This document shows positions 3,756 through 61,036 of a stretch of 64,000 bases of DNA, in pieces; the first letter of the stretch is position 1, and every line of letters begins with the position of its first letter. Source of the DNA: Micromonospora sp. WMMD1128 (GTDB lineage Bacteria > Actinomycetota > Actinomycetes > Mycobacteriales > Micromonosporaceae); NCBI RefSeq assembly GCF_027497235.1, contig NZ_CP114902.1, positions 6,226,001 to 6,290,000 of the forward strand, in the 5' to 3' direction. The notes beneath the pieces were generated by a model that was not told where the DNA came from, did no database searches, and saw nothing but the letters and a program-made list of their open reading frames with translations. Position numbers and translations under genes: made by a program.

Positions 3756-4309
3756 CAGGCACCCGGTTCGGCGTAAGCGGGCTGCCTGATCAGGACCATG
3801 AATCTTGGCGCGTCATCCCAGGCCGGAGTCAGATGAGTGACGTGCCGCCACCCCCAGGAGTCGTAGACGCGTCGAGCGACGCTGTTCTCCGGATCCACCA
3901 GAAGGGTGGCGCGGTCCTCCGCGCGGCGGCTTAGAAGTTGGTCGTGCAGCGCTCGCGCCACGCCTTGCCGCCGCCACTGCGGTTGCACGAGCAGTTCGCT
4001 GATGGCGAAGGTACGTCGTCCCGTCTCCGTGACGAACCCGGACGGAATGGGTTGTTCGATTCCCGCCCACCACCCGGTCTCGGCGGGCAGGGGAAAGCCG
4101 TAGATGTACCCGGCCAGTCTCCCGCCGGCCATGGCGGTGACCAGGCTCCATCCGTCGCGTGACATGTGGGCGGCGAGCTGGCGTCGGTAACGGTCCTCGC
4201 TGTGGAACTCGCCGCCGCCCACGTACACCTGAAGGTATAGGGCGACGAGGTCGTCGACGAGCGGGGCCGCCTCGACCGCGGTGTGGTGACGCAGGTCCAG
4301 TCCCCCCAC
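3755..4309 (-). CDS. GNAT-family N-acetyltransferase
   Basis: A 184-residue acetyl-CoA-dependent acyltransferase; the substrate is not predictable. Acetyltransferase motif A is visible as ISELLVQPQWRRQGVARALH, including the Q/RxxGxA pyrophosphate-binding turn. It is followed by LLVDPENSVARRVYDSWGW, the usual C-terminal strand and helix. The GTG start at 4309 overlaps the TAG stop of the upstream regulator by one base (TAGTG), which implies translational coupling. Longer in-frame readings into the regulator gene are unlikely. It may act on a target related to the regulator's signal, but nothing in the sequence identifies it. Confidence 0.8.
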   Translation of the reverse strand: MGGLDLRHHTAVEAAPLVDDLVALYLQVYVGGGEFHSEDRYRRQLAAHMSRDGWSLVTAMAGGRLAGYIYGFPLPAETGWWAGIEQPIPSGFVTETGRRTFAISELLVQPQWRRQGVARALHDQLLSRRAEDRATLLVDPENSVARRVYDSWGWRHVTHLTPAWDDAPRFMVLIRQPAYAEPGA

Positions 4310-5826
4310 TACCGGCTCACCACCTGGTCGTAGGCGTCGATGAACCCGCGGCTCGTGGCGGTCGGTCGCTGGGCCTGCCCCAGGCTCGACCTGACCTGGG
4401 CGAGGTGGCGCCAAACCCGCCCGGAACCCACCTGGTCCAGCTCGGGCAGGACGTCCATTGCCGTACGCGCGGCCTCGTTGACGTCGCCGAGCCGGCACTG
4501 CGCGTCGGCGAGCTGAACCGTGTAGTAGATCCGGTTCCGGCGCAACGCCGGTGGGATGTTCTCAGTGATCGCGCGGAACGCGTCCGCGGCACGATCAGCC
4601 CGGCCCATCGCGAGGTACGACAGCCCTTCGATGCCCTGGACCTCCTGTGCGGTGACGAAGTGGAGAAATGGCATGTCGTCCTCGCTGGCGCCGCGCTCGA
4701 ACTCGCGGCGAGCCTTGGTCATCGCCCGGCTGAAGCCGCCCGCATCCCCCAGTGCCGCGTACGTGCTCGCGGTGCGCAGGTGGAGCAAGGTCGCCAACCT
4801 CGGCGTGCCCCACCCGGCCGAGGCACGCACCGCCGCTTCCGCGCTGTGCAACGACTCGCCGGGGTGGTCGTCCCGAACGAGCAACGCGAGCTGAGCGAAG
4901 GCGCGGACCTCCATGCGCGGATCGTCAGCGATGCGGGCCCGGGTGATCGCCTCGTTGAGGTACGGCCGCGCCAGCGGCCGACGATCGGAGTCGATGGCCA
5001 GCCAGGCGGTCTCTATCGCCAGGTCGGCCAGCGCGGTCTGCAGGGCGTCGCCGACCTCCCGGCTGTAGGTGGCCGTTGTCGCCCACGAAGACAGGCGTGA
5101 ATGGATCCGGACGGCGATGTCGTAGAGCTGATCGGCGCCCGCGACCGCGTCGGCCTGGCGGAGTTGCTCCACCAACGAGCCGGCGTAGCGTACCTGTTCC
5201 ATGCCGACGCTCCGAGGTGCGTCGACCGGGCCGGAAAGCAGGTCGTGGAAGCCCGTCGCGGCGATGCCGGCAAGTGCGGCCAGGGCGTGAAACTGTCGGC
5301 GGTCCGTGGTGCCACCTCCTCGCTCCGATGCCGGTGTCGCGGCATCCGCCGGGATCGGCGGGTTCGCCGTCCCGGCTGTCTCCAGGGTTGCGACCGGCTC
5401 GTGGTCCGGTCGCTCGGCATCCGTGCTCTGCATGGCGGATGGCTGGTCGGGCAGGCTGAACCACAGGTACGGCGACGGAATCCGGAGCAGCCGCGCCCAG
5501 TGGATGAGGCGATCCAGGTGAACGATCGGCGGCCCGTTCTCCACCCGGCTCAACTGCGCCTGCGTGATCCCCAGCCACCCCGCCACCGCGCTCTGCGGCA
5601 GTGGGCTCCTCCCCTGGTAGGGGTGATTCCGATACGCGCGAATCGCCCGACCGAGATGCCGTCCGGCCAGCGCCGCCCGTACCGGCTCGTGCTCCCAGAA
5701 GGACGCCGGCACCACCGGCGGGGCGCTCAACCGGTCCCGTTCGGCGGCCTGGCAGGGCGCGCAGCGTCCACTGTCGTTGTCGCGAGCCAGGCGTCCGCCG
5801 CAGCGGGGGCAGTTGGCGTGTGTCAC
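4309..5826 (-). CDS. XRE-family regulator with N-terminal zinc ribbon and TPR-like C-terminal region
   Basis: A 505-residue regulator. Residues 5-28 contain two Cys pairs (CPRCGG...CAPCQ) that look like a zinc ribbon. A helix-turn-helix of the Cro/CI type follows at about 75-105 (QSAVAGWLGITQAQLSRVENG). The remaining region is alpha-helical and Ala/Leu-rich, typical of the tetratricopeptide sensor regions in actinobacterial XRE regulators. Start is GTG at 5826. It is coupled to the acetyltransferase downstream. The upstream 238 nt contain an imperfect palindromic repeat and possibly the promoter. The ligand and targets are unknown. Confidence 0.8.
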   Translation of the reverse strand: MTHANCPRCGGRLARDNDSGRCAPCQAAERDRLSAPPVVPASFWEHEPVRAALAGRHLGRAIRAYRNHPYQGRSPLPQSAVAGWLGITQAQLSRVENGPPIVHLDRLIHWARLLRIPSPYLWFSLPDQPSAMQSTDAERPDHEPVATLETAGTANPPIPADAATPASERGGGTTDRRQFHALAALAGIAATGFHDLLSGPVDAPRSVGMEQVRYAGSLVEQLRQADAVAGADQLYDIAVRIHSRLSSWATTATYSREVGDALQTALADLAIETAWLAIDSDRRPLARPYLNEAITRARIADDPRMEVRAFAQLALLVRDDHPGESLHSAEAAVRASAGWGTPRLATLLHLRTASTYAALGDAGGFSRAMTKARREFERGASEDDMPFLHFVTAQEVQGIEGLSYLAMGRADRAADAFRAITENIPPALRRNRIYYTVQLADAQCRLGDVNEAARTAMDVLPELDQVGSGRVWRHLAQVRSSLGQAQRPTATSRGFIDAYDQVVSR

Positions 5827-11830: not shown

Positions 11831-12313
11831 GTGCTGGTCGTGACGACGGATCAACTGCCCGGCTACGAGATCCGCCAGATCCTCGGCGAGGTGGTCTCCT
11901 CGATGGCGCGGACCCGCAACCCGTACCGCGAGGGGGTCAAGAATCTGCGTGGTGGCGCCTACGACCCGATGGCCCCGGACAACCTCACCCGCTGGCGCAC
12001 CGACTCGGTGGCCCGGCTCGGCGAGGAGGCGCAGCGCCTCGGCGCGAACGCGGTGATCGGCATGCGCTTCGACAGCCGCGACTGCGGCGAGATGTGGATG
12101 GAGATCTGCGCGTACGGCACAGCGGTGATCGTGGTGCCGAGGACGCCCGACATCATGCCGCCGGACCAGCCGATGATCGCCGCCGAGACCGCCCACGAGC
12201 CGGAGATCGCCACCGCCCCCGGCGGCATCGCCGAACCGGCGAGCGCCCCCAACCTGAGTTCGGCGGCCGAAACCCCCACCGGCCCCTGGCCCCCGCCCCT
12301 TTCTCACCGTTGA
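11831..12313 (+). CDS. YbjQ / UPF0145 family protein
   Basis: A 160-residue cytoplasmic protein of the YbjQ family (also called heavy-metal-binding domain), thought to form pentamers; its role is unknown. The family signature is clear: VVTTDQLPGYEIRQILGEV, then MARTRNPYREGVKNLRGG, and LGANAVIGMRFDS. About 45 residues after the core are Pro/Ala-rich. Start is GTG at 11831 or GTG at 11840; neither has a strong ribosome site. The stop codon TGA is part of the palindromic repeat that begins at 12308, so the natural end may have been altered by that element. Confidence 0.8.
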   Translation: MLVVTTDQLPGYEIRQILGEVVSSMARTRNPYREGVKNLRGGAYDPMAPDNLTRWRTDSVARLGEEAQRLGANAVIGMRFDSRDCGEMWMEICAYGTAVIVVPRTPDIMPPDQPMIAAETAHEPEIATAPGGIAEPASAPNLSSAAETPTGPWPPPLSHR

Positions 12314-12370
12314 TCATGAAGTTAGCGGCAGCGACGGAGATCCACATCGCCGCCAACTTCATGATCAACG
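12308..12370. repeat. Family A imperfect palindromic repeat, copy 1
   Basis: Arms CGTTGATCATGAAGTTAGCG and its near-perfect inverse at the other end, around a centre of about 20 nt. It lies between convergent ybjQ-like and purB genes and supplies the stop codon of the former. The other copies are at 20328, 35505, 36595 and 60930. Confidence 0.9.
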
Positions 12371-12385
12371 GGGAAGGCCGTGCGG

Positions 12386-13810
12386 TCAGAGGATGGGGGA
12401 TGGGGAGTAGGTGGCGGCCTCGGGGTGGGAACGGACGATCTCGGTGATCCGTGCGGTCACCCGGGTCACCTGATCGTCGGCGGCGCCGGTGAAGGTGCTG
12501 CGATCGGCGACCAGGGCGTCGATCTCGGAGCGGGTCAGGTTCAGGCGGCCGTCGGCGGCCAGGCGGTCGAACAGGTCGTTCTCGGGCGCACCCTGCTCCC
12601 GCATGGCCAACGCCACGGCCACCGCGTGCTCCTTGATCACCTCGTGTGCGACCTCGCGGCCGACGCCCCGGCGGACGGCGGCGACCAGGATCTTCGTGGT
12701 GGCCAGGAACGGCAGGAAGCGCTCCAGCTCCCGGTTGATCACCGCTGGGTACGGGCCGAACTCGTCGAGCACGGTGAGGAACGTCTGGAACAGGCCGTCG
12801 GCGGCGAAGAACGCGTCCGGCAGCGCCACCCGACGCACCACCGAGCAGGACACGTCGCCCTCGTTCCACTGGTCCCCAGCCAGCTCGCCGACCATCGACA
12901 GGTAACCCCGGATGATCACCGCGAAGCCGTTCACCCGCTCCGAGGAACGGGTGTTCATCTTGTGCGGCATCGCGCTGGACCCGACCTGCCCCGGCTTGAA
13001 GCCCTCGGTGACCAGCTCCTGGCCCACCATCAGCCGGATCGTGGTGGCAAGCGACGACGGCGCGGCGGCCACCTGCGCCAGCGCGGCCAGCACGTCGAAG
13101 TCGAGCGAGCGCGGATAGACCTGGCCGACGCTGTCCAGCACCCGGCCGAACCCGAGGTGCCCGGCCACCCGGCGCTCCAGCTCGGCCACCTTGCCGGCGT
13201 CGCCGTCGAAGAGGTCGAGCTGGTCGGCGGCGGTGCCCACCGGCCCCTTGATCCCGCGCAGCGGGTAGCGGCCGATCAGGTCCGCCAACCGCTCGTACGC
13301 GATAAGCAGTTCCTCGGCGGCGGACGCGAAGCGCTTGCCCAGCGTGGTGGCCTGCGCCGCGACGTTGTGCGACCGGCCGGTCAGCACCAGCGGGGAGTAT
13401 TCGCCCGCGTGCCAGGCGAGCCGGGCCAGGGTGGCGACCACCCGGTCCCGGATCAGCTCCAGCGACGCCCGGATCTGGAGCTGCTCGACGTTCTCGGTGA
13501 GGTCGCGGGAGGTCATCCCCTTGTGCACGTGCTCGTGCCCGGCGAGCGCGCTGAACTCCTCGATCCGGGCCTTCACGTCGTGCCGGGTGACCCGCTCGCG
13601 CGCCGCGATCGAGGCCAGGTCGACGTCGTCGACCACCCGCTCGTACGCCTCGACCACCCCGTCCGGCACCGGCACGCCGAGGTCCCGCTGGGCCCGGAGC
13701 ACCGCCAGCCAGAGCCGGCGCTCCATCCGGACCTTTTCCTCCGGCGACCAGAGGGCCACCAGCTCCGGTGAGGCGTAGCGGTTGGCGAGCACGTTCGGGA
13801 TCGTCGTCAC
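12386..13810 (-). CDS. purB: Adenylosuccinate lyase
   Basis: Cleaves fumarate from SAICAR and from adenylosuccinate. The 474-residue protein carries the fumarase/aspartase superfamily pattern: HEHVHKGMTSRDLTEN (substrate and catalytic His region), LTGRSHNVAAQATTLG, and the signature loop GSSAMPHKMNTRSSERV. Start is GTG at 13810 (MTTIPNVLANRYAS), the form usual in relatives; an ATG at 13819 would add three residues. It probably follows the small gene at 13842-14090 by 31 nt, so co-transcription with the TNT module is possible though not expected functionally. Confidence 0.96.
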   Translation of the reverse strand: MTTIPNVLANRYASPELVALWSPEEKVRMERRLWLAVLRAQRDLGVPVPDGVVEAYERVVDDVDLASIAARERVTRHDVKARIEEFSALAGHEHVHKGMTSRDLTENVEQLQIRASLELIRDRVVATLARLAWHAGEYSPLVLTGRSHNVAAQATTLGKRFASAAEELLIAYERLADLIGRYPLRGIKGPVGTAADQLDLFDGDAGKVAELERRVAGHLGFGRVLDSVGQVYPRSLDFDVLAALAQVAAAPSSLATTIRLMVGQELVTEGFKPGQVGSSAMPHKMNTRSSERVNGFAVIIRGYLSMVGELAGDQWNEGDVSCSVVRRVALPDAFFAADGLFQTFLTVLDEFGPYPAVINRELERFLPFLATTKILVAAVRRGVGREVAHEVIKEHAVAVALAMREQGAPENDLFDRLAADGRLNLTRSEIDALVADRSTFTGAADDQVTRVTARITEIVRSHPEAATYSPSPIL

Positions 13811-20145: not shown

Positions 20146-21263
20146 TGGCCACCCGCGACCACGATCCCGACGATCTCACCCTGCACGACCTGATCGAGGG
20201 CCCCACCCAGGACCTCACCTCGGCCCGGGCGGCCCTGGCCGCGCGCGGCACCCCGCCACCCCCGGTCGAGGAGACCCAGGACCTGTCGACTGCCCAAACC
20301 GCCGCACTGACCCCACCCCGCTCCGACGATCATGAAGTTGACGGCACTTCCGGAGATCCACAGGACCGCCAACTTCATGATCAACCGAGTGGGGAGCCGG
20401 GTGGGCGGAAGCGGGTGGAGCTGGAGCGGTTGCCTGCGGCGGGGGCGCTCTACCGGCGGGCCATGCTGGGGGTGCTGCCCGGGACGGGGCGGCGGCGGGG
20501 GCGGGAGCTGCCGGCCGTCGAGCTGGGCGTCGCGGGGGTGACGGTGGACCCGGGGCATCTGGCCGACTACGACCGGGTGTGCGGGTTCCGGCTGGCCGAC
20601 CGGCTGCCGGCGACCTACCTGCACGTGCTCGGGTTTCCGCTGTCGCTGCGGCTGATGACCGCCGCCGACTTCCCGATCCCGCTCACCGGCGTGGTGCACG
20701 TGGCCAACCGGATCACCGTGCGCCGGCCGGTGCGGGCCGACGAGGTCGTCGACTTCCGGACGTACGCGGAGAACCTGCGCCCGCACGAACGGGGCCGGCA
20801 GCTCGACGTGGTGCTCGTCGGCTCGGTCGGCGGCGAGGAGGTGTGGCGGGGCGTGTCGACGTACCTCGGGAAGGAGCGCGCGGCCGGCGGCGGTCCGCGG
20901 CGCGACCGGGGTGACCGCCCCGCGCCGCCGGCCCCCTCGGCGCAATGGCGGGTGACGCCCCGGGTGGGTTCGGACTACGCCCGGGTCTCCGGCGACCACA
21001 ACCCGATCCACACCTCGAAGCTCGGCGCGCGGCTGTTCGGCTTCCCGCGCCCGATCGCGCACGGCATGTGGAGCAAGGCCCGCTGCCTGGCCGCGCTCGA
21101 TGCCCGGCTGCCCGACGTCTACACCGTGGACGTGGCGTTCAAGCTGCCGGTGCCGCTGCCGTCCACGGTGGCCTTCAGCGCGTCACGCTCCGGCGAGGGC
21201 TGGGACTTCGGGCTGCACGGCGCCCGGGACGGACGACCCCACCTGGTCGGCACCGTCCGCTGA
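20145..21263 (+). CDS. htdX: MaoC-family (R)-3-hydroxyacyl dehydratase, HtdX-type, with a repeat inserted in frame
   Basis: A 372-residue double-hotdog dehydratase acting on 3-hydroxyacyl-ACP/CoA, the partner of FabG4. The C-terminal hotdog carries the hydratase motif YARVSGDHNPIHTSKLG ... FPRPIAHGMW with catalytic Asp and His. The N-terminal hotdog begins near residue 85 (RVELERLPAAGALYRRAML). Residues 1-84 are unusual: a hydrophilic leader and, at residues 62-80, a complete family A palindromic repeat read in frame. The true family start may therefore lie later, or the leader is a lineage-specific addition. It is followed by a strong terminator. Confidence 0.85.
   Translation: MATRDHDPDDLTLHDLIEGPTQDLTSARAALAARGTPPPPVEETQDLSTAQTAALTPPRSDDHEVDGTSGDPQDRQLHDQPSGEPGGRKRVELERLPAAGALYRRAMLGVLPGTGRRRGRELPAVELGVAGVTVDPGHLADYDRVCGFRLADRLPATYLHVLGFPLSLRLMTAADFPIPLTGVVHVANRITVRRPVRADEVVDFRTYAENLRPHERGRQLDVVLVGSVGGEEVWRGVSTYLGKERAAGGGPRRDRGDRPAPPAPSAQWRVTPRVGSDYARVSGDHNPIHTSKLGARLFGFPRPIAHGMWSKARCLAALDARLPDVYTVDVAFKLPVPLPSTVAFSASRSGEGWDFGLHGARDGRPHLVGTVR
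20328..20382. repeat. Family A imperfect palindromic repeat, copy 2, inside htdX
   Basis: GATCATGAAGTTGACGG at one end and its inverse with one mismatch at the other. It is the only copy lying wholly inside a coding frame; here the reading passes through without a stop codon. Confidence 0.9.
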
Positions 21264-21264
21264 G

Positions 21265-21294
21265 GAGAGAGGGGACCTTGCGGTCCCCTCTCTC
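21265..21294. terminator. Hairpin terminator after htdX
   Basis: A 13-bp perfect stem (21265-21277 with 21282-21294), 4-nt loop, immediately after the htdX stop. Confidence 0.8.
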
Positions 21295-21307
21295 GTGCGT
21301 TAAGTTG

Positions 21308-21338
21308 TTCTCAGATTGAGTTGTTCTCAAGATGAGAA
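21308..21338 (+). promoter_or_regulatory. Tandem operator-like inverted repeats before the Nudix gene
   Basis: Two copies spaced 16 nt: TTCTCA-GAT-TGAGTT (21308-21322) and TTCTCA-AGA-TGAGAA (21324-21338), the second perfectly palindromic. They end 10 nt before the start codon, overlapping the likely ribosome site, as expected for autorepression by a Nudix regulator. The function is inferred. Confidence 0.55.
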
Positions 21339-21348
21339 GGTAATCGTC

Positions 21349-22077
21349 GTGAACGAGCAGGACTTCCTCGCCGGATACGACCCCCGGGACTACCCGGCGG
21401 TCGCGGTCACCGTCGACGTGGTCGCCCTGACCATCCGCGAGGGCGCGCTGCACCTGCTGCTGATCCGCCGGGGCGCACCTCCCTACGCGGGGCACTGGGC
21501 CCTGCCCGGCGGCTTCGTCCGACCGGACGAGGACCTGTCCGACGGCGCCCGGCGCGAGCTGGCCGAGGAGACCGGGCTCGGCGGCGAGCGGCTGCGCCGG
21601 GTGCACCTGGAACAGCTCGGCAGCTACGGCACGCCGGACCGCGACCCGCGCATGCGGGTGGTCTCGATCGCCCACCTGGCGTTCGCCCCCGACCTGCCCG
21701 ACCCGGTCGCCGACACCGACGCCGCCGACGCGGCCTGGCTACCGGTCACCGCGCTGGGCAGCCGGCAGCTCGCCTTCGACCACGGATGGATCATCGACGA
21801 CGGGCTGGAACGGGCCCGGTCCAAACTGGAATACACCCCGCTCGCCACCCGCTTCCTCGCGCCCGAGTTCACCATCACCGAGCTGCGGGCGGTCTACGAG
21901 ACGGTCTGGGGTCAGCCGCTGCACGCCGGCAACTTCCACCGCAAGGTGCTCTCCGTGCCCGGCTTCGTGGAGGCCACCGGCGCCAGCACCGAACGCGGCG
22001 GCGCCCGGGGCGGCCCCCGCGCCAAGCTCTACCGCGCTGCCGCCGCCCACCTCCTCCACCCCGCCCTCCTCCGATGA
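21349..22077 (+). CDS. Nudix-domain protein with C-terminal winged helix (NrtR-like)
   Basis: A 242-residue protein. The Nudix box is intact: GGFVRPDEDLSDGARRELAEETGL (at about residues 54-77). The C-terminal part (LEYTPLATRFLAPEFTITEL ... VYETVWGQPLHAGNFHRKVL) is the winged-helix region of NrtR-type regulators. NrtR proteins sense ADP-ribose or related nucleotides and repress NAD genes, but the intact Nudix box also permits hydrolase activity. Start is GTG at 21349 after GAGAAGG. The operator-like repeats upstream suggest autoregulation. The stop overlaps the next gene's ATG by 4 nt. Confidence 0.85.
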   Translation: MNEQDFLAGYDPRDYPAVAVTVDVVALTIREGALHLLLIRRGAPPYAGHWALPGGFVRPDEDLSDGARRELAEETGLGGERLRRVHLEQLGSYGTPDRDPRMRVVSIAHLAFAPDLPDPVADTDAADAAWLPVTALGSRQLAFDHGWIIDDGLERARSKLEYTPLATRFLAPEFTITELRAVYETVWGQPLHAGNFHRKVLSVPGFVEATGASTERGGARGGPRAKLYRAAAAHLLHPALLR

Positions 22078-22829
22078 GGTGCAAGGCGGGGGCCCCGCTT
22101 AACGCCTCCGGTATAGGCGGGGGCCCCGCTTATCACCGGCAGCTCAAGGCACCACGGCACCCGAGCGACAACGATCTGATGCGCCGGGAGGCGCGTGCCC
22201 TGCGACGGATCGCCGAGCGCGGGGACCCGCGGCACCTCGCGTACGTGCCCCGACTGGTCGACTCCTATCCGGTGCGCGACCCGGCGACCGGTGCGGAACT
22301 GATCGTCAACGTGCTGGAGACGGTGCCGGGGCTGCACAGCCTGGAGGACGTGCGCCGGGCGTACCCCGATGGGGTGGACCCGCGCGACGCGGCCTGGATG
22401 TGGCGGCGGCTGCTCGTCGCGCTCGGCCTCGCCCACCGGGCCGGGGTGGTGCACGGCGCGGTGCTACCCCGGAACGTGCTGATCGAGCCGGACGCGCACG
22501 GCCTGGTGCTCGTCGACTGGTGCTTCGCCACCGAGCCGGGCGGGCTGGTGCCGGCGCTCGTGACCGACATGGCCGACTGGTATCCGCCGGAGGTCACCGG
22601 AAAGCGGCCCTGCGGCCCGGGCACCGACATCGCGCTTGCCGCCCGCTGCCTGACCTGGCTGATGGCCGACCGCGCGCCGCGTGAGCTGCGCGCCTTCGCC
22701 GCCGGCTGCCGGCAACCCGCGCTGTCCGCCCGGCCGGACGACGCCTGGCGGCTGCTCCGCGAACTCGACGAGGTGCTGGACCGGCTCTACGGGCCACGCA
22801 CCTTCCGACCCTTCACCCTCAACCCCTAG
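22074..22829 (+). CDS. Kinase-fold protein, probably a 5'-truncated pseudokinase
   Basis: A 251-residue open frame. From about residue 23 it reads as a protein-kinase fold lacking the N-lobe glycine loop: LKAPRHPSDNDLMRREARAL, then GVVHGAVLPRNVLIE and LVLVDWCFA. In active kinases these last two would be HRDLKPxN and DFG; here the catalytic Asp and Lys are replaced (HGA, L), so catalysis is unlikely. The first 20 codons are a family B repeat, so the natural N-terminus (I recall J-domain-containing relatives) seems to have been lost. ATG at 22074 overlaps the Nudix stop; ATG at 22179 is an alternative. The VWA gene follows at 10 nt. Confidence 0.65.
   Translation: MRCKAGAPLNASGIGGGPAYHRQLKAPRHPSDNDLMRREARALRRIAERGDPRHLAYVPRLVDSYPVRDPATGAELIVNVLETVPGLHSLEDVRRAYPDGVDPRDAAWMWRRLLVALGLAHRAGVVHGAVLPRNVLIEPDAHGLVLVDWCFATEPGGLVPALVTDMADWYPPEVTGKRPCGPGTDIALAARCLTWLMADRAPRELRAFAAGCRQPALSARPDDAWRLLRELDEVLDRLYGPRTFRPFTLNP
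22084..22133 (+). repeat. Family B GC-rich repeat, copy 1
   Basis: Pattern: GGGGGCCCCG, then TTAACGCCTCCGGTATAGG, then GGGGGCCCCG. The centre is shared with the copies at 25008, 28296 (inverted) and 43405. Here it forms the N-terminal codons of the kinase-fold gene and directly follows the Nudix stop. Confidence 0.85.
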
Positions 22830-22839
22830 GGAGGCTGCC

Positions 22840-23799
22840 ATGGGCAGCGGAATCTGGTCCACCGACGTGTACGACGCGGCCGACAGCTACCGGCGCAAGA
22901 CCGGCCGGAGCGCCTTCTCCTACAGTGACAGCGGGGCGCGGACCGTGCACCCCGCGCTCGACCCGCGCGGCGCGACGCGGGAGAGCCGCGACTCCGCCGA
23001 ACACCCGCAGTCGACGCCGATCGCGGTGCTCTTCGACGTCACCGGCTCGATGGGCCACGTGCCCCGGGTGCTCCAGGGCAAGCTGCCGCAACTGCTCGGC
23101 CTGCTGCTCCGCCAGGGGTACGCCCGCGACCCGCAGGTCATGTTCGGCGCGATCGGCGACGCCACCTGCGACCGGGTGCCGTTGCAGATCGGGCAGTTCG
23201 AGTCCGACAACCGGATGGACGACGACCTCGGCCGGATCGTGCTGGAAGGCGGCGGGGGCGGCCAGATGATGGAGTCGTACGAGCTGGCGCTGTACTTCAT
23301 AGCCCGGCACACGGTCACCGACAGCTGGGCGAAGCGGGGCCGGCGCGGCTACCTGTTCGTCATCGGCGACGAGCTGGCCTACCCCCGGGTGAAGGGGCGG
23401 GAGGTGGCCAAGCTGATCGGCGACCGCCGGGTCGAGGACCTGCCGATCCGGCAGGTCGTCGACGAGGTGACCGCCCGCTGGGACACCTACCACCTGCTCC
23501 CCGCCGGCGCCGCCCACGCCGGCAACCGTAAGGTGCTCGACTTCTGGCGCGGGCTGCTCGGGCAGAACGCGGTCGAGTTGGACGACCTGGACGCGGTCTG
23601 CGAGACCATCGCGCTCATCGTCGGCCTCGGCGAACAGGCCATCGACCTGGACACCGGCCTGGACGACCTGAACCGGACCGGCTCGACCGCCACCCGTACC
23701 GTCTCCCAGGCGCTCGCCCGGCTCGGCGGCGACCGGCGCGCGGTGGCGGCGCTGCCGTTCACCCCGACCGACGGCGAGGGCGGGGTCACCCGGCTGTGA
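22840..23799 (+). CDS. VWA-domain protein
   Basis: A 319-residue protein with a von Willebrand A-type core. The metal-site motif is seen as VLFDVTGSMGHVP (DxTGS, about residues 62-74), then a region with FGAIGDAT and GGGGGQMMESYELAL, and LFVIGDELAYP. No signal peptide or membrane helix is visible, so it is cytoplasmic. Start is ATG after AGGGAGG. It sits between a kinase-fold gene and a PurA paralogue; its stop overlaps the latter's GTG by 4 nt. VWA proteins in such operons usually act as scaffolds or sensors. The specific role is unknown. Confidence 0.8.
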   Translation: MGSGIWSTDVYDAADSYRRKTGRSAFSYSDSGARTVHPALDPRGATRESRDSAEHPQSTPIAVLFDVTGSMGHVPRVLQGKLPQLLGLLLRQGYARDPQVMFGAIGDATCDRVPLQIGQFESDNRMDDDLGRIVLEGGGGGQMMESYELALYFIARHTVTDSWAKRGRRGYLFVIGDELAYPRVKGREVAKLIGDRRVEDLPIRQVVDEVTARWDTYHLLPAGAAHAGNRKVLDFWRGLLGQNAVELDDLDAVCETIALIVGLGEQAIDLDTGLDDLNRTGSTATRTVSQALARLGGDRRAVAALPFTPTDGEGGVTRL

Positions 23800-25058
23800 A
23801 CCACGTGATGGTGGTCGACCTCGGCTACGGCGACGCCGGCAAGGGCACGGTCGTCGACCTGCTCTGCGCCACCCGGCCGGTGCACACGGTGGTGCGCTTC
23901 AACGGGGGCGCGCAGGCGGCGCACAACGTCGTGCTGCGCGACGGGCGGGCGCACACGTTCGCGCAGTTCGGGGCCGGGACGTTCCGCCCCGGCGTACGGA
24001 CGCACCTGGCCCGGCACGTGGTGGTGGACCCGCTGGCGCTGGCCGCCGAGGCCGACCACCTCGCGGCGGTCGGGGTGCCCGACGCGCTCGACCGGTTGAC
24101 CGTGGACGGGGAGGCGCTGCTGGCCACCCCGTACCACCGGGCGGCCAACCGGGCCCGGGAGATCGCCCGGGGAGCCGACCGGCACGGCTCCTGCGGGCTG
24201 GGGGTGGGCGAGGCCGTCGCGTACGGCCTCGCCCACCCCGACGAGGCGCCCCGGGTGGCCGACTGCCGCGAGCCGGCGGTGCTGCGCCGCCGGCTCGCCG
24301 CGCTGCGCGACCGGCTCACCGCCGAACTCGGGCCGCTCGACGCGCCGCCGGTCGCCGACTGCCTGCCCGCGTACGCCGCCTTCGCCGACCGGGTGGCGAT
24401 CGTCGACCGGACCTGGCTGGCCGGGGCGCTGCGTGCCGGCACCTGTGTCTTCGAGGGGGCGCAGGGGGTGCTGCTCGACGAGTGGCACGGCTTCCACCCG
24501 TACACGACGTGGAGCACCACGACGTTCGCCAACGCCGAGGCGCTGCTCGCCGAGGCCGGGATGGCCGGGGCCGCCCAGCGGCTCGGGGTGCTGCGGGTGA
24601 CCACCACCCGGCACGGCCCCGGGCCGCTCGTCACCGAGGACCCGGCGCTGCCGTTCACCGACCCGCGCAACCCGACGAACGCCTGGCAGGGCCGGTTCCG
24701 GTTCGGGCACTTCGACGCCGTCGCCCACAGGTACGCGCTTGCGGTGGCCGACGGCGTGGACGGGCTGGCCCTGACCCACCTCGACCTGGCCGGCCCGGCC
24801 CTGCGGATCTGCCGCCGCTACGCCGACGGCCCCGACCGGCTCGTCCCCGGCCGCCCCGGTGACCTGGACCGGCAGGCGGCGCTCACCGCGCGGCTGATGC
24901 GGGCGCGCCCGGTGCTCGACGAGGCGCCGGCCGACTGGCCGGCGGTAGTCGAGGAGGCGCTCGGCGCCCCCGTGCTGCTGACGTCGCACGGCCCCACCGC
25001 TGAAGCGAAGGCGGGGGCCCTTGTTAACGCTTTTTGTATAGGAAGGGCCCCCGCCTAA
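23796..25058 (+). CDS. Adenylosuccinate synthetase paralogue of unknown substrate
   Basis: A 420-residue protein of the PurA fold, separate from the housekeeping purA in this window. The N-terminal GTP-loop and catalytic region is kept (VDLGYGDAGKGTVVDLL, with Asp and Lys; NGGAQAAHNVV, with His), as is the Arg-rich amino-acid loop (GRFRFGHFDAVA). The IMP-binding segment, [10 protein letters not shown] in PurA, is replaced by HGSCGLGVGEAVAYG. A different nucleotide or acceptor is therefore likely. It overlaps the VWA gene by 4 nt. The last 17 or so codons and the stop come from a family B repeat and use rare codons (TTT, TGT, ATA). Confidence 0.8.
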   Translation: MNHVMVVDLGYGDAGKGTVVDLLCATRPVHTVVRFNGGAQAAHNVVLRDGRAHTFAQFGAGTFRPGVRTHLARHVVVDPLALAAEADHLAAVGVPDALDRLTVDGEALLATPYHRAANRAREIARGADRHGSCGLGVGEAVAYGLAHPDEAPRVADCREPAVLRRRLAALRDRLTAELGPLDAPPVADCLPAYAAFADRVAIVDRTWLAGALRAGTCVFEGAQGVLLDEWHGFHPYTTWSTTTFANAEALLAEAGMAGAAQRLGVLRVTTTRHGPGPLVTEDPALPFTDPRNPTNAWQGRFRFGHFDAVAHRYALAVADGVDGLALTHLDLAGPALRICRRYADGPDRLVPGRPGDLDRQAALTARLMRARPVLDEAPADWPAVVEEALGAPVLLTSHGPTAEAKAGALVNAFCIGRAPA

Positions 25059-25060
25059 CA
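25008..25060 (+). repeat. Family B GC-rich repeat, copy 2
   Basis: Same orientation as copy 1: GGCGGGGGCCCTTGTTAACG, then GTATAGGAAGGGCCCCCGCC. It encodes the C-terminal tail and stop codon of the PurA paralogue, and with copy 1 brackets the three-gene cassette. Confidence 0.85.
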
Positions 25061-25083
25061 CCCCACCGTCGAGCATGGGAGGC

Positions 25084-25701
25084 ATGGGGGACGTGCTCGA
25101 CCTGCTGCACCACACGGTGACCTCACCGTGGGTGTACCTGGTGATCGTCGCGGCCACGGCGGTCGACGCGTTCTTCCCGGCGGTGCCGGGTGAGACCGTG
25201 GTGATCACCGCGGGCGTCTTCGCGGCCGGCGGCGAGCCGAACCTGGTGGCGGTGATCGTGACCGCCGCGCTCGGCGCGCTGATCGGCGACCACGTCTCGT
25301 ACGCCATCGGTCGCGGCGGCGGTGCGCACCGGCTGGCCCGCCTACCGGCGGACAGCCGGCGGCGGGCGAGTTCCGACTGGGCCCGCCGGGCGGTCGACCG
25401 GCGCGGCGGGATGATCCTGACCACCGCCCGGTACGTCCCCGGCGGCCGGACCGCGGTCACGCTCACCATGGGCGCGGTGCGCTACCCGCCGCGCTCGTTC
25501 CTGGCCTACGACGCGCTGGCCTGCGGCACCTGGGGAACCTACTGCGGTCTGCTCGGCTACTTCGGCGGCTTGGCCTTCGAGCACAACCCGCTCACCGGGC
25601 TGCTCGCCGGCGTCGGCATCTCGCTGGCGCTCACCGGGCTGTTCGAGGCCGCCCGCTGGGCCCGCCGCCGGGTCCGCCGCCGGGCCGCGACCCGTCGCTG
25701 A
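25084..25701 (+). CDS. DedA-family membrane protein (first of two close paralogues)
   Basis: A 205-residue polytopic membrane protein of the DedA/SNARE-associated family, thought to move polyprenyl-phosphate or other lipids using the proton gradient. The family motifs are seen: FFPAVPGETVVITAG, GALIGDHVSYAIGR, and TTARYVPGGRTAVTLTMG with the essential Arg and Gly. Start is ATG at 25084, chosen by alignment with the paralogue at 27692. The basic tail (RRRVRRRAATRR) overlaps the 3' end of the convergent response regulator gene by 71 nt, and its last codons lie in a 42-nt tandem duplication. Confidence 0.88.
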   Translation: MGDVLDLLHHTVTSPWVYLVIVAATAVDAFFPAVPGETVVITAGVFAAGGEPNLVAVIVTAALGALIGDHVSYAIGRGGGAHRLARLPADSRRRASSDWARRAVDRRGGMILTTARYVPGGRTAVTLTMGAVRYPPRSFLAYDALACGTWGTYCGLLGYFGGLAFEHNPLTGLLAGVGISLALTGLFEAARWARRRVRRRAATRR

Positions 25702-27531: not shown

Positions 27532-27691
27532 CCCGCGAGCCTAGGCCGGACCGGTCCGCGACGGGACCGGGCTCGGGGAGGGTTGGGTGCCGACCCCGAG
27601 ACCACTTCGGGGTACGGCGCGACGAAAGTGGACCCTCGCGGCCGACCGACGACAGATTCCGCCGAGCGCCGGCGGCACCAGCATCGACGTC

Positions 27692-28372
27692 ATGGATGCC
27701 GTCCTCGACCTGTTCCACGACACGATCTCCTCGCCCTGGGTCTATCTGGCGCTGTTCACCATCGCCGTGGTGGACGGGTTCTTCCCCGTCGTACCGAGCG
27801 AGACCGCCGTCATCACCGCCGGCGTGTTCGCCGCCACCGGCCAGCCCGACCTGCCGCTGGTGATCGGCGTGGCCGCGCTCGGCGCGCTTGTCGGCGACCA
27901 CGTCTCGTACGCGATCGGCCGGCACGGCGGCGCGCGGCTGCTGGATCGCCTGCCCCGGGACAGCCGGCGGTGGATCGCGGTGGACCGGGCCCGGCGGGGC
28001 ATCGCGGTACGCGGTGGCCTCATCCTCACCGTGGCCCGGTACGTGCCGGGCGGCCGGACCGCCGTGACCCTCACCATGGGCGCGACCCGGTTCCCCCGCC
28101 GGCGGTTCCTCGCCTTCGACGCGCTGGCCGCCGCCACCTGGGGCACCTACTCGGCGTCGGTCGGCTATCTCGGCGGGCTCGCCTTCGAGCAGGATCCGAT
28201 CCGCGGCCTGCTGTTCGGGCTGGGGCTGGCCCTCACCGTGACCCTGGTGGTGGAGGTGGTGCGCTGGTCACGGAGCCGCCGCCGGTCGGCGCGGTTGTTA
28301 AAAGGGGCCCCCGCCTCTACCGAAAGCGTTAAGAAGGGGCCCCTCCTTACCCCCCAGCGGGGTGATAGGTGA
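27692..28372 (+). CDS. DedA-family membrane protein (second paralogue), repeat-extended C-terminus
   Basis: A 226-residue DedA protein, clearly paralogous to the one at 25084: MDAVLDLFHDTISSPWVYL, FFPVVPSETAVITAG, GALVGDHVSYAIGR, and TVARYVPGGRTAVTLTMG. The natural end probably lay near residue 200. The last 24 or so residues (LKGAPASTESVKKGPLL...) are read from a family B repeat, which also adds a TTA leucine codon at 28298-28300, a codon that needs the developmentally controlled bldA tRNA in actinomycetes. The stop overlaps the 3' end of the convergent TetR gene by 26 nt. Confidence 0.87.
   Translation: MDAVLDLFHDTISSPWVYLALFTIAVVDGFFPVVPSETAVITAGVFAATGQPDLPLVIGVAALGALVGDHVSYAIGRHGGARLLDRLPRDSRRWIAVDRARRGIAVRGGLILTVARYVPGGRTAVTLTMGATRFPRRRFLAFDALAAATWGTYSASVGYLGGLAFEQDPIRGLLFGLGLALTVTLVVEVVRWSRSRRRSARLLKGAPASTESVKKGPLLTPQRGDR
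28296..28350 (-). repeat. Family B GC-rich repeat, copy 3 (inverted)
   Basis: Opposite orientation to copies 1, 2 and 4: GGGGCCCCCGCCTCTACCG, then AAAGCGTTAAGAAGGGGCCC. It forms the 3' end of the second dedA gene and touches the TetR stop. Confidence 0.85.
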
Positions 28373-35469: not shown

Positions 35470-35504
35470 GCCCGCATCCTACTGACCCCCACCCCCCACC
35501 CCGT

Positions 35505-35561
35505 CGATCATGAAGTTGACGGCAACATGTGAGATCGACTTCGCCGCCAACCTCATGATCG
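35505..35561. repeat. Family A imperfect palindromic repeat, copy 3
   Basis: CGATCATGAAGTTGACGGC with an inverse at the far end. It contributes the last sense codons and the TGA stop of the AbiEi/DUF559 gene on the minus strand, and lies 36 nt upstream of purD. Confidence 0.88.
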
Positions 35562-36491
35562 AAGCCGGGTGCGGGTGCGAAGTGCTTCGCGGACGACCTG
35601 GGGGATGTAGTCGGGGCGGAGGGTGTCGGGCCATGTGAACCGAAGCACGGTCCACCCGGCGTTGGCGAGGCGATTCTGCCGCTGCCGATCCTCGAAGAGT
35701 GCCGCCGGAGCGGTGTGCGGATCCCGGCCGTCCGCCTCGGCGATCACCCGGGCACTTCGCCAGCCCATGTCGCCCACACCGAGGAGGTGCCCGTCGGCGT
35801 CACGTACCTCCACCTGGAGGATGTCCGGCGGCACTCCACCATCGACACAACGGAGCCGGGTCCGGGTCTCGAGCGGCGACTGCGCCGCGCCATTCGCCTC
35901 CACCAGGTGACTGCGAGCCGCCACCGCGCCCCGCCGGCGCGCGAACAGTGCAGGCATGGCCCGCAGGTCGTCCTCGCTGACCTTCCCACGGTTCAGCGCC
36001 GAGTCGAGCAGCGCGACGGCCGGATATCGGCGCTCCCGGAGAACAAGATCCGCGAGGGTACGCACCGGAGCCGTCACCGGAATGCCGTCGACCGTCGTCA
36101 GCTCGCCGTCAAGGTGGTCGAACTGATGCGGGACCACGGCGGGATCCCCGACCCGGGCCGGTCGGGCCGAGCGGCCCGGCAACGCGACATGGATCGCCGC
36201 CATCCTCGGAAGGCCGGCGATTCCGTGCAGCTCGGCGGCGGTCCCCAGAACGGCGTGCGCCTCCGGCCCGAGCGAAAGCAGCGCAGCTCGAATCCGGCGA
36301 CGTCGTTCGGCCAGGTCGGACCCGGACGACGGCTCGACGACGTACGTCGCCCGAGCCAGCCGCCGCCATCGACCGGTCCTGAGCAGGTTGTCGATCTCAA
36401 ACCGACTGAAGCCGGCCCGCAGCGCCTGGTCACGGGTGACAACCCCACCCTGTTCCCTGGCGATCTGCTTGACCACCCAAACGCGCTCCAC
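35553..36491 (-). CDS. AbiEi-like winged-helix protein with C-terminal DUF559/Vsr-like nuclease domain
   Basis: A 312-residue protein of a type abundant in actinomycetes. N-terminus: an AbiEi antitoxin-like winged helix (ARE-QGGVVTRDQALRAG ... LLRTGRWRRLARATYV). Middle: an all-alpha segment (PVRTLADLVLRERRYPAVALLDSAL). C-terminus: a restriction-endonuclease-like fold with DMGW, VIAEADGRDPH and RQNRLANAGWTVLRFTW, as in DUF559/Vsr proteins. No AbiEii-like toxin gene is adjacent. The GTG at 36491 follows GGGAGG at 9 nt; GTG at 36476 is possible. The stop codon is contributed by a family A repeat. Confidence 0.75.
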   Translation of the reverse strand: MERVWVVKQIAREQGGVVTRDQALRAGFSRFEIDNLLRTGRWRRLARATYVVEPSSGSDLAERRRRIRAALLSLGPEAHAVLGTAAELHGIAGLPRMAAIHVALPGRSARPARVGDPAVVPHQFDHLDGELTTVDGIPVTAPVRTLADLVLRERRYPAVALLDSALNRGKVSEDDLRAMPALFARRRGAVAARSHLVEANGAAQSPLETRTRLRCVDGGVPPDILQVEVRDADGHLLGVGDMGWRSARVIAEADGRDPHTAPAALFEDRQRQNRLANAGWTVLRFTWPDTLRPDYIPQVVREALRTRTRLRS

Positions 36492-36594
36492 CCACCGAGC
36501 CTCCCGGCAGGCCCAGCCCGAACCAACCCCCTGTGGATAACCGGCCCCACCCTGTGGACAACCCACCCCACCCACCCACCCCACCCAGCCCGGC

Positions 36595-36651
36595 TGATCA
36601 TGAAGTTAGCGGCGATGTCGATCTACGCAACTGCCGCTAACTTCATGATCA
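36595..36651. repeat. Family A imperfect palindromic repeat, copy 4
   Basis: TGATCATGAAGTTAGCGGC and its exact inverse at 36633-36651, around a 19-nt centre; the most symmetric copy. It lies between purA (stop at 36692) and the AbiEi-like gene and could serve as a transcription terminator. Confidence 0.9.
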
Positions 36652-36691
36652 ACGAGGTGAGGCGGGGTGTGGCCGGGTGAGGCGGCGGGTG

Positions 36692-39102
<2,411 letters not shown>

Positions 39103-60904: not shown

Positions 60905-60929
60905 CCCACCCGCAGGGAAGGCAAGCGGA

Positions 60930-60986
60930 TGATCATGAAGTTAGCGGCATCAGCGGAGATCAACACCGCCGCCAACCTCATGATCA
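60930..60986. repeat. Family A imperfect palindromic repeat, copy 5
   Basis: TGATCATGAAGTTAGCGGC with an inverse at 60968-60986 (two mismatches). It lies 25 nt after the 60476 gene stop and well before the opposing small gene. Confidence 0.9.
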
Positions 60987-61036
60987 CGGCATCGAGGGCA
61001 GGGCGCGGGCACCCAGCGTTCCGGGCCGTCTGTGTG

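Follow-up and report, generated by a model that had tools for sequence, protein, structure and literature searches.

We identify, in a 64,000-nucleotide stretch of the Micromonospora sp. WMMD1128 genome (hereafter the window), an operon of four genes that code, in this order, for an NrtR-type Nudix/winged-helix regulator, a pseudokinase, a VWA protein and a divergent adenylosuccinate synthetase (PurA)-like ligase, here termed PurA2. We give about even odds (probability roughly 0.5) to the reading that this is a ligand-gated operon, in which a PurA-type ligase would act on a substrate other than IMP with the VWA protein and a J-domain pseudokinase as partners, under a nucleotide-sensing repressor and as part of the phage-host nucleotide economy.

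Architecture of the operon

The relevant features of the window are:

21278..21306, + strand: predicted sigma70-like promoter, TTGCGG-N17-TAAGTT (sequence pattern)
21310..21336, + strand: putative tandem operator, CTCANNNTGAG-N5-CTCANNNTGAG, directly after the -10 element (conservation upstream of relatives)
21349..22077, + strand: NrtR-type regulator with Nudix and winged-helix domains (PF00293, 1.2e-20; PF21906 NrtR_WHD, 3.6e-12)
22074..22829, + strand: truncated pseudokinase (PF00069, 1.9e-5, below cut-off; comparison with relatives)
22083..22135, + strand: hairpin repeat copy 1, within the kinase ORF (fold z -4.14)
22840..23799, + strand: VWA protein with intact MIDAS (D66, T68, S70, D107, D177)
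23796..25058, + strand: PurA2, divergent adenylosuccinate synthetase-like ligase (PF00709, 1e-58; own tree branch; residue tables)
25008..25060, + strand: hairpin repeat copy 2, providing the last codons and stop of PurA2 (fold z -6.20)
36719..37969, - strand: canonical purA of the same genome, outside the unit, for comparison (PF00709, 601.1 bits)

The original prediction had placed the last three genes of the operon in one tightly coupled unit, and its coordinates stand: the kinase-like ORF is separated by a 10-nt gap from the VWA gene, which in turn overlaps the PurA paralog by GTGA. The unit is nevertheless larger than the three genes then proposed, for the regulator gene, whose 3' end overlaps the pseudokinase start by ATGA, and the operator upstream of it had been missed. 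Also missed were the J domain of the pseudokinase, the fact that it is lost here, and the copies of the unit in phages and plasmids. Beyond the four genes no further conserved neighbor was clear across genera in 32 loci, and Rfam had no match anywhere in the window.

Conservation across bacteria, phages and plasmids

The original prediction had staked itself on the co-occurrence of its three families in other genomes, and this is what we observe: VWA and PurA2 are almost always found together, usually with the kinase. VWA adjoins PurA2 in 78 of 80 actinobacterial loci, both misses being cut at contig ends, and is present in 27/27 loci of a class-level draw (the best 27 of 41) and 29/29 of a family-level draw (the best 29 of 106). 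A VWA search of a phylum-wide draw of 396 genomes gave 2 matches and the PurA2 class draw 41/394, two figures that come from different sets and are not comparable. Relatives of the VWA protein occur on 388 IMG/VR stretches; among the 80 of these that we examined, which had been selected by VWA, PurA2 is present in 79 and the kinase in 57, and most of the 80 show no conserved neighbor beyond the trio. The terminase profile PF03237, a weak check of viral origin that misses even phage Sebata, matched 11/42 records at E<=0.001, nine of them over its cut-off. VWA relatives are present in 207 phage records, 188 of them from Mycobacterium phages; locus L176 encodes VWA and kinase without PurA2 in the stretch covered.

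These counts show that the VWA-PurA2 pairing is near-obligate and usually joined by the J-domain pseudokinase, and that the same trio recurs in cluster C mycobacteriophages, in plasmids and in most of the viral loci examined. The cluster C1 genes for a Ser/Thr kinase, an 'HNH endonuclease' and a PurA-like protein (Pinkcreek 240, 241 and 243) are this same trio; in the part of PMC9476963 that treats them they are listed among the genes conserved in all C1 members and printed as separate gene names, not as a unit. The host of the window is a soil bacterium, in which linked genes common to many large phages and some plasmids lie behind a dedicated putative switch.

PurA2 is distinct from PurA and PurZ

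PurA2 had been rightly taken for a divergent adenylosuccinate synthetase (PF00709, 199.5 bits against a cut-off of 27, establishing the PurA fold), and the separate normal purA claimed for this genome is indeed present at 36719-37969 on the minus strand. Asp13, Lys16, His41 and Gln224, which we take to be the catalytic residues of PurA, are each retained in 47/47 aligned PurA2 rows, and T239 in 46/47. The positions N38, T129 and R143, presumably the IMP-phosphate residues of PurA, are changed: N38 is Q in 47/47, T129 is C in 40/47 and no residue is conserved in the R143 column, while the phiKT1024 PurA2 retains Asn at position 38. The aspartate loop TTGR (300-303) is rebuilt as W, F or Y (42/47), Q (46/47), G (42/47) and then a variable residue, its register being uncertain by one residue between two comparisons, in neither of which R303 is conserved. 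The presumed phosphate-binding and aspartate-binding residues of PurA are in this way replaced in PurA2. It could still be an isozyme of ordinary adenylosuccinate synthetase, kept in reserve or for stress, as the fold and catalytic residues would allow. Against this, the altered pocket and loop are matched by scores far below the PurA equivalog cut-offs (NF002223, 153 against 402; TIGR00184, 114.6 against 395.55), and the strict link to VWA and the carriage by phages would be left without selective logic. On the scores and changed residues we reject ordinary PurA, and regard an isozyme of this kind as very improbable.

PurZ/PurZ0 (2-aminoadenylosuccinate synthetase; phages phiVC8 and S-2L) is likewise a phage PurA paralog with an altered substrate, as PurA2 appears to be, although we know of no VWA or pseudokinase partner of PurZ. 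PurA2 might be PurZ-like and provide phage DNA with a modified deoxynucleotide (2-aminoadenine or the like), the bacterial copies being leftovers. PurZ does provide the precedent for a phage PurA paralog (PMC12884076), and the best PHROG match of PurA2, PHROG 1211, and several phage records read '2-aminooxy adenylosuccinate synthetase', as does the phiVC8 PurZ record. However, PurZ carries Ser in place of Asp13 (PMC12884076), a position that is Asp in every PurA2 row, and the PurZ model NF038379 scores PurA2 at 40.5 bits, its cut-off being 300. In a phylogenetic tree PurA2 branches apart from PurA and PurZ, the PurA2 and PurZ branches receiving 100% each (with four PurZ rows). Moreover, a YfbR-like protein of the DatZ family scored over cut-off in 1/41 VWA-bearing records, with one more below it, and the phiVC8 control was positive. 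The residue, the model score, the tree and the near-absence of the DatZ family lead us to reject the PurZ/Z-DNA reading, and a PurZ-like role of any sort seems quite unlikely.

The VWA protein and the J-domain pseudokinase

Pfam finds no VWA domain in the VWA protein, and its identity therefore rests on the MIDAS motif and predicted fold: DxS/TxS and the further Asp ligands are in place in a VWA fold, which upholds the original assignment in these respects and not by Pfam detection. A sequence search of solved structures returned one match, at chance level. That this protein is the scaffold of the unit, as first proposed, is plausible.

The kinase fold without its catalytic Asp was correctly perceived: HGA stands where HRD is expected, and none of 40 aligned kinases has the HRD Asp that marks an active Ser/Thr protein kinase, the residue being A in 35, S in 3, N in 1 and G in 1. 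HPD, on the other hand, is present in 38/40 aligned full-length kinases, 29/40 match DnaJ in Pfam at E<=0.1, and a structure model of one relative (L048) contains the J-domain helices. With HPD lying between helices II and III, the full-length relatives are, by motif and model, J-domain pseudokinases. This alignment leaves out 6 of 46 representative kinases, of which five have HPD; the sixth, from Variovorax (L144), lacks it and possibly has a zinc ribbon in its place (match E 0.02).

The kinase of the window has itself lost the J domain: its relatives have about 90 additional N-terminal residues, comprising the J domain and the front of the N-lobe, and about residues 4-20 of the truncated protein are encoded by hairpin repeat copy 1. 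By this comparison the J domain was lost at the point where a genome-wide hairpin repeat entered. The remainder is apparently under purifying selection, pairwise dN/dS among four truncated copies being 0.09-0.21 by simple Nei-Gojobori counts, which argues against a decayed kinase. The kinase is absent in L047 and L083, undetected in 23/80 viral loci and undetected also in the sequence covered for five isolate phages or gut contigs, and is for these reasons dispensable.

The J domain invites a structural reading, in which VWA and the J-pseudokinase fold or assemble a virion or complex and PurA2 is an NTP-driven, non-biosynthetic part. MoxR-vWA pairs have been proposed as virion chaperones (PMC7824862), and the Sebata trio is situated downstream of the lysis genes. 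Yet none of the PurA2 catalytic residues varies across the 47 rows, the bacterial operons have a nucleotide-type regulator and no further partner clearly conserved across genera, and the clade of the window has lost the J domain, the rest being apparently under purifying selection; we hold such a chaperone module to be possible, though doubtful.

Hairpin repeats

The cassette had further been described as bracketed by direct repeats. Two same-strand copies, identical at 41/53 positions, do exist, both within ORF ends to which they contribute codons, but as boundaries they fail: the repeat core has 64 copies in the genome (reversed control 0), and among 17 relatives checked with up to 3 substitutions allowed, both copies are found in 6, the 3' copy alone in 6 (L043, L044, L049, L051, L060, L065) and neither in 5, one of which (L040) shows a decayed 3' copy by eye. 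A composite mobile element bounded by the repeats is rejected on the same grounds, and the bracketing is, as far as such comparisons tell, without functional meaning.

A predicted local NrtR-type switch

The regulator combines Nudix and NrtR winged-helix domains, as in NrtR proteins by Pfam, and scores 135 bits with the NCBIfam NtrR equivalog, below the cut-off of 400. Its start is likely GTG; the open frame itself begins at TTG 21316, within the operator. The promoter-plus-operator pattern matches 46/50 Micromonospora upstream regions, the same sequences from which it was derived, and the operator is found at <=2 mismatches in 76/78 upstream regions against 0/2906 random windows. In its own genome the operator pattern occurs at one place only (<=2 mismatches of a 29-nt form), showing one predicted regulator with one operator place. 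The palindromic operator over the promoter is NrtR-like; unlike classical NrtR, no second site was found at NAD-metabolism genes of this genome in the <=2-mismatch search, so that the regulator is predicted to be single-site and local, and its Nudix box is mostly intact (66/77 bacterial loci; 11/77 not intact). The operator also differs from the known NrtR motif.

A Nudix gene lies upstream of the trio in Actinobacteria and phage L159, downstream in one Rhodococcus and one Tsukamurella plasmid, and divergent from it in Allorhizobium and Acetobacter plasmids. L159 has the order NrtR, VWA, Nudix-fused protein, NAMPT, PurA2, kinase; in L183, VWA and PurA2 are separated by NAMPT and a Prs-like gene; and in RHph_TM30 a gene with the annotation NMN adenylyltransferase/Nudix precedes VWA by about 2.7 kb. 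For phages this makes a thin link to NAD, because such genes are seldom near the unit in 40 large contigs: NAPRTase is present in only 5, adjoining the unit in 2, and Nudix genes in 20, within 6 kb of VWA in 4 (L159, L198, L200, L225; L198 and L200 are near-copies). TROVE/Ro occurs in 16/41 VWA-bearing records; a tight TROVE-VWA link is rejected, as 0/207 VWA phage records are from Streptomyces phages, yet 117 Streptomyces phage records have TROVE.

Carriage on plasmids and phages and a repressor-gated bacterial version would also suit a defence system in which PurA2 produces a signal or uses up a nucleotide upon infection, and proposed conflict systems do include Nudix regulators of the same type (PMC9503650). 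The ADP-ribosylglycohydrolase (ARG)-centered systems described there likewise join a Nudix regulator and a vWA chaperone in one operon but are built around ARG and phosphatases, and the text of that paper has no mention of PurA, adenylosuccin- or DnaJ. PADLOC (2023 library) has no match for VWA or PurA2 at E<=0.1, and Pfam recognizes no effector domain in the operon. Since cluster C phages, which carry the unit, are not known as temperate (PMC3029335), a phage-serving or neutral role is favored, and defence appears unlikely.

Proposed mechanism and implications

Under the favored reading of a ligand-gated operon, PurA2 would retain PurA-type chemistry, phosphorylating the 6-oxo or amide oxygen of a purine at the expense of GTP or a different NTP, whereupon an amine displaces the phosphate; its substrate would be other than IMP plus aspartate and its product an altered purine nucleotide. 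The VWA protein may dock onto PurA2, the contact being made by its MIDAS metal and an acidic residue, and the pseudokinase may bind nucleotide without catalysis and recruit Hsp70 where the J domain is retained; both would control assembly or activity. The Nudix regulator of the bacterial operons would repress them until a rise of an ADP-ribose-like nucleotide, or of the PurA2 substrate or product, relieves repression; most phage loci seen have no regulator of this kind beside the unit, which is presumably expressed throughout infection. All this would probably play out in the NAD/ADP-ribose or purine-nucleotide economy of phage-host conflict. The early suggestion that the unit makes or senses a nucleotide-like compound fits the kept catalytic residues with changed pockets, the NrtR-type regulator and the NAD-salvage genes that a few phages have within the unit or close to it.

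A more specific proposal, to which we give little weight, is that PurA2, active only when partnered by VWA, re-aminates or aminoacylates an unusual purine nucleotide, for example ITP or deaminated NAD/ADP-ribose (a hypoxanthine dinucleotide), and so repairs or signals nucleotide damage in the course of phage-host conflict, the host Nudix repressor sensing the same class. At those same long odds, the unit would be a new system for modifying nucleotides, widespread among large phages, plasmids and actinobacteria. Its genes have so far been labelled separately as 'kinase', 'hypothetical' and '2-aminooxy adenylosuccinate synthetase'. Should the product prove to be a new purine nucleotide, the PurA family would gain in PurA2 a third branch next to PurA and PurZ, and the bacterial regulator, having one operator only, could be used to report on the ligand.

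A conserved unit around a divergent PurA

The components of the unit, and the standard purA of the same genome, map to the window as follows:

21310..21336, putative operator
21349..22077, plus strand, NrtR-type Nudix/winged-helix regulator
22074..22829, plus strand, predicted pseudokinase
22840..23799, plus strand, VWA protein
23796..25058, plus strand, divergent PurA paralogue (PurA2)
36719..37969, minus strand, normal purA

The original prediction of three coupled genes with this spacing, comprising a kinase lacking its catalytic Asp, a VWA protein and a divergent PurA in a genome with a normal purA, is borne out by the window in all these respects. The unit is larger than three genes, as a gene combining Nudix and NrtR-type winged-helix domains lies upstream, its stop overlapping the kinase start (ATGA). 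A search of named genomes with PurA2 recovered 241 relatives, and we used the best 80 of these (L033-L112; mostly from Micromonospora, the rest from Asanoa, Virgisporangium, Dactylosporangium, Actinomadura, Streptosporangium and others) for the gene-neighborhood check that had been proposed. In this set VWA lies directly upstream of PurA2 in 78 of 80 loci, the kinase is present in 76 (it is missing from L047 and L083) and the Nudix gene in 77; two loci, L088 and L100, end at a contig end. At E<=1e-60 PurA2 occurs in 106 of 200 genomes of the family, representing 20 of 44 genera, and in 41 of 394 genomes of the class. VWA accompanies it in all of the best 29 of the 106 family matches and all of the best 27 of the 41 class matches, and by a simple rule is upstream on the same strand in 28 and 24 of these, respectively.

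Some loci show further features. A Streptosporangiaceae MAG (L103) has a second Nudix relative on the minus strand just 5' of the operon (4303-4950), and a draft genome (L042) gives two matching pieces each for VWA and the next VTT gene, which may be a sequencing error. In the window, two DedA/VTT-domain paralogues that are 70-74% identical in DNA (25075-25701 and 27587-28372), a duplication, lie on either side of an apparent two-component pair encoded on the opposite strand.

The regulator and its putative operator

A putative operator of the form CTCANNNTGAG-N5-CTCANNNTGAG lies 5' of the regulator gene. Using a pattern derived from the same loci, it was recovered exactly in 20 of 78 loci, in 57 at <=1 mismatch, in 76 at <=2 and in 77 at <=3 (L085 being the sole exception), and in 0 of ~2,900 random windows of these loci at every mismatch level. 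Immediately 5' of it, a promoter-like TTG...TA[AG]GTT is seen in 46 of 50 Micromonospora regions. A 29-nt form of it occurs at one place in the genome of the window at <=2 mismatches, from which we infer that the regulator may act as a local autoregulator. Of 77 regulators, 66 retain an intact Nudix box; related Nudix regulators sense ADP-ribose, according to PMC9503650.

A J-domain pseudokinase, truncated at a genome repeat

Full-length relatives of the kinase begin with a J domain: HPD is present in 38 of 40, and the Pfam DnaJ model matches 29 of 40 at E<=0.1 (best 2.1e-25). The J-domain helices are visible in a structural model of the bacterial relative L048 (pLDDT 94.3, pTM 0.78), for which Foldseek returned a DnaJ-PKA chimera as the top match (rmsd 19.6), followed by kinases. 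The HRD Asp is missing from all 40 aligned kinases, with the DFG-position Asp (29), beta3 Lys (38) and alphaC Glu (40) mostly kept, making the protein a pseudokinase that may still be capable of binding nucleotides.

The original prediction further held that two direct repeats bracket the cassette. Both copies are present (22083-22135 and 25008-25060, 41/53 identical, with strong predicted hairpins of z -4.14 and -6.20, respectively), but they are ordinary genome repeats that have landed within ORF ends. The repeat core TTAACGCNTNNNGTATAGG has 64 copies genome-wide (reversed control, 0). Of 21 genomes searched, the 7 that contain it all belong to the same genus; among 17 relatives of the unit, 6 have both copies, 6 the 3' copy alone and 5 neither. 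The kinases of the window, L033, L037 and L042 have lost the J domain together with the front part of the N-lobe, and their start is followed by repeat-derived codons. In L034, L035 and L036 the repeat lies in frame within the N-lobe, with part of the J domain also deleted in L036, and it is absent from the N-lobe of L040. HPD is missing from 4 of the 75 kinases of the bacterial set (L033, L036, L037 and L042). Since dN/dS is 0.09-0.21 for six pairs of truncated kinases (0.39 for L034-L040), the remaining part looks to be under selection.

Within the pseudokinase ORF, ARAGORN calls a tRNA-Arg at 22172-22262, probably a false positive. A second palindromic repeat family, with TGATCATGAAGTTAGCGGC arms, has 5 copies in the window:

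12307..12399
20323..20415
35501..35593
36591..36683
60926..61018

Active-site substitutions in PurA2

Numbered as in E. coli PurA, D13, K16, H41 and Q224 are invariant across the 47 aligned PurA2 proteins and T239 is kept in 46. N38 is replaced by Q (47/47), T129 by C (40/47), V273 by H (47/47) and K331 by H (28/47) or C (16/47), and the R143 column shows no conservation. The aspartate loop is replaced by [WFY] (42/47), Q (46/47), G (42/47), a variable residue and then Arg (47/47). The PurA2 of phiKT1024, outside these 47 rows, retains Asn38. 

R303 is not conserved in PurA2 under either of two loop registers one residue apart; its role in the aspartate loop of PurA is covered in PMC8342488. 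In a midpoint-rooted tree of 61 rows, with unsettled bootstraps and with long branches and uneven composition flagged, one branch (100/100) separates 55 PurA2 proteins from 2 PurA and 4 PurZ (phage 2-aminoadenylosuccinate synthetase) sequences, and an 11-row set (97/97) unites chromosomal PurA2 copies with those of phages and plasmids. Through PHROG 1211, PurA2 receives the family name '2-aminooxy adenylosuccinate synthetase'. The product of phiVC8 PurZ is called the same, and the name seems incorrect for PurA2.

Phage and plasmid copies

The best phage matches of PurA2, at 45% identity, are in cluster C mycobacteriophages, where a small ORF lies beside it along with VWA and the kinase; PMC9476963, on Pinkcreek, lists the kinase gene, gene 241 and the PurA gene as conserved in every C1 member. 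VWA relatives are found in 207 of 50,697 phage records, Mycobacterium accounting for 188 of the 207, and in 21 of 72,556 plasmid records, and the order kinase-VWA-PurA2 is seen in all five plasmids examined (Rhodococcus, Tsukamurella, Variovorax, Allorhizobium and Acetobacter). Scanning IMG/VR with VWA gave 447 stretches and 388 relatives on contigs whose viral status is IMG/VR's own assignment, our check for terminase genes having been a weak one; the best 80 of the 388 include PurA2 in 79 loci (73 distinct proteins), within 200 nt of VWA in 50 of the 79, and the kinase in 57. The VWA-PurA2 pair also occurs in one gut contig and in two phages each of Rhizobium and Vibrio, in the examined stretches of which the kinase was undetected.

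The mobile copies have additional features. In phage LolaVinca the VWA protein (L236 2501-4282) contains an insert of ~250 residues immediately before the invariant GDE (IFIGDE), and from its motifs we take this insert to be intein-like; VWA matches fall in two pieces in several further cluster C phages. On the Allorhizobium plasmid pAtS4e (L235 9321-14843), genes annotated as AAA ATPase, DUF5682 and DUF4132 come next after the module. A conserved ORF 3' of PurA2 (276 aa in L193) in eight IMG/VR loci (L193, L203, L213, L215, L217, L218, L221 and L223) may encode an ATP-grasp protein. A TROVE/Ro gene is present in 16 of 41 VWA-bearing viral records; a search with the Sebata Ro protein matched 342 of 50,697 phage records, the methods of the two counts differing, with a large-phage bias and no rate claimed.

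A suggestive link to NAD metabolism

The contexts of the unit in several elements are suggestive, though only that, of a link to NAD metabolism. One IMG/VR locus (L159) has the order NrtR, VWA, Nudix-fused protein, NAMPT, PurA2, kinase, and in another (L183) VWA and PurA2 are separated by NAMPT and a Prs-like gene. RHph_TM30 has an annotated NMN adenylyltransferase/Nudix gene ~2.7 kb from VWA, phiKT1024 an annotated NADAR gene near VWA-PurA2, and Nudix genes flank plasmid copies of the trio in two arrangements other than upstream. Among 40 large contigs, NAPRTase is present in just 5, adjoining the unit in 2, and Nudix genes in 20, by coordinates <=6 kb from VWA in 4.

Our searches of the open-access literature, to which their scope was confined, found no description of the pseudokinase-VWA-PurA2 unit. 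PMC12884076 reports 481 phage PurA homologues, with 147 phage sequences placed in the PurZ group, and its available part does not mention VWA or pseudokinase-type partners. vWA chaperones and Nudix regulators are discussed in PMC7824862 and PMC9503650, in their available parts without the trio. The module is real and conserved, and undescribed within these searches, its function being what we infer from the above; every part is of known fold, and the novelty lies in their combination.
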